Below, piece by piece: positions 2,393-5,735 of a stretch of 64,000 bases of DNA. How positions within the stretch are numbered: position 1 is the stretch's first letter; each line of letters starts with the position of its first letter. The notes under the pieces were generated by a model. That model had not been told where the DNA came from. It searched no databases and saw only the letters and a program-made list of their open reading frames with translations. The stretch spans positions 1-64,000 of the forward strand of contig CAJCHW010000154.1 of assembly GCA_903970125.1 (NCBI GenBank), in the 5' to 3' direction. The DNA comes from Chlamydiota bacterium (lineage in GTDB: Bacteria > Actinomycetota > Thermoleophilia > Solirubrobacterales > Solirubrobacteraceae). Both the position numbers and the translations under genes were made by a program.

Positions 2393-3145
2393 TTAATTCG
2401 GAAGTGCGCGGACCCAAGCAACTATGGCCGCGGAGACTTGCTCAACCTCGGTGGCGCTGAGGCGCTGGGGACGGGCGGCCAGTACCTTCGCCAGCTCGCT
2501 GCCACGAACCCAGGCCACCTGCTCGCTCATGATCGAGCGTTGATCGAACTTAGCCCAGAGCACCACGAGCGGCTGCACCCACAGGTGGATCTGGTGGGTG
2601 CGAAGGATCTCGGATAGCTCCGCGGCGCCCGCGCGGACTATCGCTGTGACGTTGGACTTCTCGTAGCGGCCCCCTTCGTCGCCATCGTGCTGAACGGACA
2701 GCACGCCGCGCCGGACCGACACGGTGCCGGCCAGGCGTTTGGTCTCAAGCACGAACACGCCGGCTGGACCGATCAGGATGTGGTCGTAGTTACCCCGCTT
2801 GGCCGGGACGTCGTTGACGAGCACCCAGCCGGAGCGAATCAACGAGCGGAGGGCCTTGGCGGTACGTTCCTCGCCTTCGGCGCCAAACCGCCAGTTCTCG
2901 ACGTGCGGTGGCTCGGACGCGACCAGGGCGGCGATGAATACGATTGCACCTGCGAAGCCTGCGGCCCAGAAGAGTGGTCGGATCGGTGCAGGCGTGAGTA
3001 GACCCAACACGCCGACCGTCGTAGCCAGAACGACCGCAATGAGCAGTGCCCGCCACCAGACTCGGGCCAGCCACGCCCGCTGGCGTCGGTGGTACCGGTC
3101 CATCGCGTATTCGCCGGGTTTGCGGTCGAGGGGGTCTGTCGCCAT
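2393..3145 (-). CDS. NERD-domain membrane protein
   Basis: A 250-aa protein. After a basic N-terminus (HRRQRAWLARVWWR) come two hydrophobic segments at about residues 32-50 and 57-77. A cytoplasmic NERD (nuclease-related) domain follows from about 88: GAEGEERTAKALRSL, then YDHILIGPAGVFVLETKR, where the D and E-x-K are the expected nuclease-fold residues. NERD proteins are thought to process DNA or RNA and are common in mobile and defence regions; the substrate of this one is unknown. ATG 3145 was used. ATG 3103 (MDRYHRRQRAW) would also preserve both helices; neither has a convincing ribosome-binding site. It sits between the HEPN/MNT pair and hipBA, all on the same strand. Confidence 0.8.
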   Translation of the reverse strand: MATDPLDRKPGEYAMDRYHRRQRAWLARVWWRALLIAVVLATTVGVLGLLTPAPIRPLFWAAGFAGAIVFIAALVASEPPHVENWRFGAEGEERTAKALRSLIRSGWVLVNDVPAKRGNYDHILIGPAGVFVLETKRLAGTVSVRRGVLSVQHDGDEGGRYEKSNVTAIVRAGAAELSEILRTHQIHLWVQPLVVLWAKFDQRSIMSEQVAWVRGSELAKVLAARPQRLSATEVEQVSAAIVAWVRALPN

Positions 3146-4675: not shown

Positions 4676-4896
4676 GAGTTGTCGCGTCTGCGCACGTCGA
4701 GGTCTAGGCCCAGCGCTGCGAGAATGCGGGTCAAGATGTCAAGTCTGACCGTGGGCTCGCCGGTCTCGACCCGATGAACTGACCGCACGCCGACGTTCGC
4801 GACCATGGCCAGGGTCTTTTGATCGAAACCCTGGCGGCGGCGCTCGTCGCGCACTCGCTGGCCTATGCGCTGGGATGCGGGTGGTGAGACGGCCAT
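4672..4896 (-). CDS. hipB: HipB-type XRE-family antitoxin and repressor
   Basis: A 74-aa helix-turn-helix protein: IGQRVRDERRRQGFDQKTLA, then VGVRSVHRVETGEPTVRLD with the recognition helix, and a short tail ending RRRDNS. It pairs with HipA, neutralising the kinase and repressing the operon. The start ATG (4896-4894) lies inside the first of three palindromes, so repressor binding would cover the translation start. This is the same arrangement of a small XRE gene before hipA, with coupled translation, as in classical hipBA operons. Confidence 0.9.
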   Translation of the reverse strand: MAVSPPASQRIGQRVRDERRRQGFDQKTLAMVANVGVRSVHRVETGEPTVRLDILTRILAALGLDLDVRRRDNS

Positions 4897-4914
4897 ATGC
4901 GTGATCGCGCATAT
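4895..4914. promoter_or_regulatory. Operator-like palindrome O1 at hipB start
   Basis: The sequence ATATGCGTGATCGCGCATAT has perfect 7-bp arms around a central GATC. It covers the hipB start codon. It shares the core GCG(T/C)GATCG(C/A)GCA with two more copies upstream, so it is a likely HipB binding site. Confidence 0.65.
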
Positions 4915-4942
4915 TATAGCGCCCAGCGGTCCTTACGGAGAC

Positions 4943-4964
4943 AATCTTCCCGATCGCGCAGATT
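4943..4964. promoter_or_regulatory. Operator-like palindrome O2
   Basis: An imperfect palindrome: AATCT and AGATT arms around a central GATCGCG. Its centre is 49 bp from the O1 centre. The right half (GATCGCGCAGAT) closely matches O1 and O3; the left half is weaker. Confidence 0.55.
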
Positions 4965-4992
4965 ACTGCAACTGAGGCGTCGGCGGCGCTAG

Positions 4993-5012
4993 ATCTGCGT
5001 GATCGAGCAGAT
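4993..5012. promoter_or_regulatory. Operator-like palindrome O3
   Basis: ATCTGCGTGATCGAGCAGAT has 6-bp perfect arms and the same central GATCG. Its centre is again exactly 49 bp from O2. The hipBA promoter should lie between O1 and O3. Confidence 0.6.
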
Positions 5013-5659: not shown

Positions 5660-5667
5660 CAAAGCGG
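5645..5667. repeat. Direct repeat copy 2 at tRNA-Gly 3' end, probable attachment site
   Basis: This 23-bp stretch, identical to 490-512, overlaps the final bases of tRNA-Gly and one terminator arm. It marks the tRNA-proximal border of the putative 5.2-kb element. Confidence 0.65.
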
Positions 5668-5735
5668 CTGAAGGGGCTCGAACCCTCGACCTTCTGCATG
5701 GCAAGCAGACGCTCTTCCAACTGAGCTACAGCCGC
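5663..5735 (-). tRNA. tRNA-Gly (anticodon GCC)
   Basis: The minus strand folds into a complete cloverleaf. The acceptor is GCGGCTG/CAGCCGC, the D arm GCTC...GAGC, the anticodon stem TCTGC/GCAGA with loop TTGCCAT, and the T arm GAGGG-TTCGAGC-CCCTT. The discriminator is T at 5663 and CCA is not encoded. A strong terminator follows directly. The gene remains intact despite the integration footprint at its 3' end. Confidence 0.96.

Follow-up and report, generated by a model that had tools for sequence, protein, structure and literature searches.

Persistence modules have HipBA as their founding example, and restraint of the kinase by DNA-bound HipB–HipA is still argued from E. coli structures. 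In E. coli, HipB was reported to bind its operators cooperatively and to bend the DNA (PMC3920265), and dimerisation of HipA in the operator complex has been linked to the hipA7 phenotype (PMC7180214; PMC7029023). In Legionella hipBST, HipB binds three evenly placed operators, O1–O3, of which O1 lies over the promoter; the gaps between them are 53 bp, i.e., ~71 bp centre to centre (PMC10653801). The hipBA1 and hipBA2 promoters of Caulobacter contain several inverted repeats in succession, the intervals of which were described as compatible with the E. coli assembly, and the main text gives no quantitative spacing rule (PMC7029023). Thus, both even three-site arrays and repeated intervals are known already, and the interest of the present analysis lies in a spacing rule and not in the single locus from which it started. 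The lac operator loops formed in vivo depend on helical phase with a period near 11 bp (10.9–11.0), as the hipBA ladder described below does; however, they are closed by one repressor tetramer and were measured on constructs, whereas the ladder is read from natural variation (PMC1831498).

Here, we examined the hipBA locus of a 64,000-nucleotide stretch of DNA (the window). Its three even sites, one of them at the promoter, resemble the Legionella array, but the latter belongs to a split toxin (HipS and HipT) and has another motif (PMC10653801).

The hipBA operon and the three palindromes of the window

Judged by its sequence, the gene pair (Table 1) is an ordinary hipBA type II toxin-antitoxin operon in a Solirubrobacterales genome. 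The HTH antitoxin gene stands directly upstream of hipA and overlaps it by 4 bp; its product gave HTH_31/HTH_3 matches above cut-off and scored 62.8 bits against TIGR03070, which is under the curated cut-off of 71.65. The toxin has N- and C-terminal kinase domains (PF13657 and PF07804, far above cut-off), is matched by the E. coli HipA structures at 4e-34, and retains the catalytic residues, the kinase-motif D, N and D being invariant columns in alignment A1 with window HipA included. The closest record to it is a Solirubrobacteraceae MAG (72% HipA identity). Assignment to hipBST was rejected, since one 410-aa HipA carries both domains found there in separate HipS and HipT. As for the surroundings, a tRNA-Gly gene at 5663–5735 has the same orientation as the array and precedes it by ~650 bp, and hipBA may have entered the genome beside it, while the region downstream of hipBA (2393–3145) encodes a NERD-domain protein (PF08378, 2e-15) that weakly matches MAD6, an antiphage protein.

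Table 1. Coordinates of the hipBA genes, promoter element and palindromic sites in the window
Feature	Positions	Strand	Remarks
hipA, HipA-family kinase toxin, 410 aa	3443..4675	(-)	HipA_C 5e-53, Couple_hipA 9e-24
hipB, Xre-type HTH antitoxin and repressor, 74 aa	4672..4896	(-)	PF13560 9e-10; TIGR03070 2e-17
O1, putative operator	4895..4914	(-)	ATATGCGCGATCACGCATAT in hip direction; 9/10 pairs match; kept in orthologues
Probable -10 box, TATAAT	4913..4918	(-)	final two bases also begin O1; read from sequence
Linker O1-O2	4915..4943	(-)	29 bp; core promoter would sit here; orthologues keep the length, with sequence identity at chance
O2, putative operator	4944..4963	(-)	ATCTGCGCGATCGGGAAGAT; 49 bp upstream of O1; 8/10 pairs match
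Linker O2-O3	4964..4992	(-)	29 bp; orthologues keep the length, with sequence identity at chance
O3, putative operator	4993..5012	(-)	ATCTGCTCGATCACGCAGAT; 49 bp upstream of O2; 8/10 pairs match

The initial annotation had placed three sites 49 bp apart upstream of hipB, and this was confirmed: the three 20-bp palindromes are spaced 49 and 49 bp from start to start, and the middle one, given there as 4943–4964, is the O2 of Table 1 plus one further matching pair. The score for an equally spaced palindrome triple was 41.0 in the window, against a mean of 26.4 (sd 1.2, maximum 32.0) for 1,000 first-order Markov shuffles. When the 2.66-Mb assembly was searched with the degenerate operator pattern ATNTNCNNGATCGNGCANAT, all 3 matches fell on the array, and the reversed control gave 0 matches. 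E. coli K-12 hipBA also has several palindromic sites before hipB, one of them adjoining the -10 box, but there are four of them (TATCC-N8-GGATA) at unequal spacings of 28/39/28. An E. coli-type operator set was accordingly rejected for the window, whose sites are ATMTGCGNGATCNCGCAKAT-like at 49/49, and the remark in the annotation that the multiple E. coli operators differ in sequence is borne out.

Three palindromes 48–50 bp apart were also found upstream of hipB in L005, L034, L031, L008, L007 and L009, the HipA proteins of which are 60–72% identical (that of L031 is a fragment). Across seven orthologues the operators are on average 73% identical, while the linkers are 29% identical, which equals chance, and 28–30 bp long. 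Since operators and spacing are kept and the linkers are randomised, the conserved property is the length of the linker and not its sequence. Conservation upstream of orthologous hipB genes had been suggested as a check of the proposed hipBA operator array; the palindromes and their 48–50-bp spacing support that proposal. The three sites are best read as the candidate autoregulatory operator set of the hipBA toxin-antitoxin operon, to which HipB would bind. In L031 hipA is truncated and hipB matches in two frames, yet all three operators remain at 49/49.

Operator spacing across hipBA promoters

The promoters of hipBA loci were searched with a scan that is blind to operator sequence and seeks three mutually similar, equally spaced palindromes in the 600 bp upstream of hipA. 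The discovery set comprised 227 loci from Actinomycetota, Pseudomonadota and Desulfobacterota together with a few named records, and its collection was biased toward high-scoring HipA proteins. A significant triple was obtained in 109/227 of these loci, and the spacings cluster at 26–28, 37–39, 48–50 and 60–62 bp, whereas the best triples of shuffled sequence spread evenly. After removal of relatives (n=93), the rung means were 26.90, 38.26, 49.46 and 61.10 bp, which corresponds to a slope of 11.32 bp per rung (95% CI 11.21–11.43); for the same 93 loci, the best period had a resultant length of 0.85, compared to 0.37 for the 99.9% null. The operator sequences of ladder loci are unrelated to one another. 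The first formula for the ladder, 10.5n+7 bp, was superseded by the fitted 11.3n+4.3. The E. coli K-12 spacings of 28 and 39 bp are close to the 27- and 38-bp rungs, and the ~71 bp of Legionella comes near 72.2 bp, where extrapolation of the fit would place the rung after 61 bp.

The rung intervals (26–28, 37–39, 48–51 and 60–62 bp) were fixed after the discovery set and before a second set was fetched, so that the second set alone tests them. It consisted of 61 loci whose HipA proteins were less than 70% identical among themselves and to those of the first set, and which at this cut are still related to the discovery loci; the two sets together make up ~290 hipBA promoters. The scan returned a significant triple in 42/61 loci, and 40/42 lay inside the intervals named beforehand; one outlier, at 54 bp, is 2 × 27 bp. 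In the controls, the same scan yielded 1/29 for HigA antitoxin loci, this single hit being a tandem repeat that is not palindromic, 0/30 for HTH_31 regulators from the same order, and 1/114 within hipA coding sequence.

We refer to promoters with three equal palindromes spaced within a named interval as the turn-quantised ladder class. The array of the window belongs to it at 49/49 (z 12.4 in the ladder scan); thus, the exact spacing of 49 bp is shared by a whole class, and this locus is an ordinary member of the 49-bp class. The second hipBA locus of the same genome, L091 (G000:C77:8396-10700), stands on the 27/27-bp rung with a different operator, TGTCGG..CCGACA, and in L179 (G643:C32) eleven sites follow each other at 27-bp intervals upstream of hipA. 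Among named plasmid loci, a clear triple was seen in 5/11 (27/28, 27/27, 50/50, 50/50 and 30/30, the last from Shewanella putrefaciens), and the scan for triples gave no clear one in the other 6/11. Among the 118/227 discovery loci in which the scan gave no significant triple are partial contigs, loci with pair arrays or another gene order and, possibly, promoters lacking any array. Pair-only arrays also occur at 31–32 and 40–41 bp. Off-rung triples at 33, 42 and 53–54 bp are low in score, near or inside coding sequence, or not palindromic, with 54 bp again being 2 × 27.

The position of O1 at the hipB promoter

In the hip direction, the TATAAT box shares two bases with the beginning of O1. 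The probable transcription start therefore falls within O1, which predicts a leader of ~10 bases. The -35 element is weak, and a search for a full sigma-70 match at the window promoter found none. Across the 49-bp class (n=51), the motif TANNNT occupies positions -5 to -1 of O1, O2 and O3 in 31, 15 and 6 loci, respectively, and across the 38-bp class (n=31) in 17, 5 and 4. The contrast is smaller in the 27-bp class (20, 16 and 8 of 53), and no contrast between O1 and O2/O3 was seen in the seven 61-bp loci.

The initial annotation had further noted that an operator lies over the hipB start codon, which holds to the extent that O1 includes the A and the T of the ATG, and had suggested that it blocks translation initiation as well. 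This last idea is not supported, and we regard such an additional block as very unlikely: although the two shared bases would allow it, HipB is a DNA-binding protein, a very short leader suffices to explain the overlap, and the overlap lacks conservation. In the orthologues L007 and L009 the hipB start codon is situated past O1, and in the 51 loci of the 49-bp class it falls between -14 and +22 bp of the O1 end (10th–90th percentile). Given that O1 reaches from the -10 box over the probable start site, its occupation would block transcription. Thus, the operator array and its conservation remain from the earlier interpretation, and the block of translation initiation does not.

A proposed geometric explanation of the ladder and its alternatives

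The explanation we favour, with a probability of roughly two in three, is that O1 would shut the promoter while O2 and O3 act as helper sites at whole helical turns in a cooperative HipB–HipA assembly. HipB dimers, each with HipA, would occupy O1, O2 and O3. O1, placed where the -10 box ends and transcription begins, would close the promoter, and the distances of the helper sites O2 and O3 would be locked to whole turns, because neighbouring HipB2–HipA2 complexes would have to meet at a fixed angle in order to bind cooperatively; the number of turns between them would be free to vary. The contact would most likely be made between HipA and HipA, with the intervening DNA bent. The survey shows a rule of fixed angle in the promoter sequences, and from it we infer HipB binding to the sites, cooperativity, a contact supplied by HipA and DNA bending. 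The looped or wrapped, that is cooperative, repressor array proposed at the outset would fit a ladder with one-turn steps.

Several observations stand against this explanation. About half of the regions have no triple, and 49 bp is far for a direct HipA–HipA contact unless the DNA bends. Relaxed DNA has a helical repeat of 10.5 bp; the fitted 11.3 bp exceeds it, and slightly exceeds also the 10.9–11.0 bp of lac loops in vivo. The step is nearer to these loop periods than to 10.5 bp, as expected for underwound cellular DNA, but the match is inexact. Moreover, the periodicity fell to p=0.05 at the deepest merging of relatives, at 40% identity with weak outliers kept.

This last value, together with the strong clustering of rungs on the HipA tree, could also mean that a few ancestral spacings were simply inherited and that their likeness to helical steps is accidental. 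At least 12 changes of rung are needed on the tree (15 counting off-ladder classes). However, with the off-rung loci included, merging of relatives at 60, 50 or 45% identity left the periodicity outside all 2,000 null draws, linker length was kept while linker sequence was fully randomised, and the changes lead from rung to rung, in some cases by a single turn with the operator core retained. For instance, L014 at 49 bp (GCGACCGATCGGTCGC) and L011 at 39 bp (ATACCGATCGGTAG) have a similar core and HipA proteins 59% identical; L053 at 37 bp and L052 at 27 bp likewise differ by one turn, with HipA 58% identical and operators less alike. We regard common descent alone as improbable. Tandem duplication of a promoter unit, with repeats devoid of function of their own, would yield equal spacing too, but linkers from the same locus are no duplicates of one another (identity 0.288 vs 0.277 expected, 89 loci), and this comparison rejects all but very old duplications, which leaves the idea with hardly any credit.

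Somewhat better placed than common descent, and still unlikely, is a role of the promoter in setting the spacing, in which RNA polymerase, and not HipA, would fix the DNA face of O2 and O3, and HipB dimers would bind independently. The -10 box is in constant register with O1, and the 29-bp linker of the 49-bp class just accommodates a core promoter. Nevertheless, O3 lies outside the core promoter and is spaced equally, the linkers of the other classes (~7, 18 and 41 bp) put O2 at quite different promoter positions, and the phase of the ladder varies between HipA branches. Loci at 30–32 and 40–41 bp are nearly all found on one separate branch containing the Shewanella-type HipA (L443, L191, L192, L164, L203, L207 and L220). 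The two spacings of this branch also differ by roughly a turn, but in a phase other than that of the main ladder; one exception among the off-ladder loci is L074 (29/40/29), which is not on that branch. As off-ladder loci fall almost all on one HipA branch, the phase goes with the protein.

Taken as a whole, it is probable that hipBA promoters share a quantised geometry (27, 38, 49.5 and 61 bp, ~11.3 bp per rung) with unrelated operators, a phase specific to the HipA subfamily and evolutionary changes by whole turns. Literature text searches, which covered a 2015 paper on HipBA-promoter structures through the papers citing it, found no account of quantised spacing across these promoters. If the rule is true, natural variation reads out the geometry in which HipB, HipA and DNA assemble, and also the effective helical repeat that promoter DNA has in vivo. 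Its occurrence in Actinomycetota, Pseudomonadota, Desulfobacterota and viral contigs suggests that higher-order assembly on DNA is general, with an angle for each HipA subfamily, and geometry alone could locate hipB operators of undescribed sequence.
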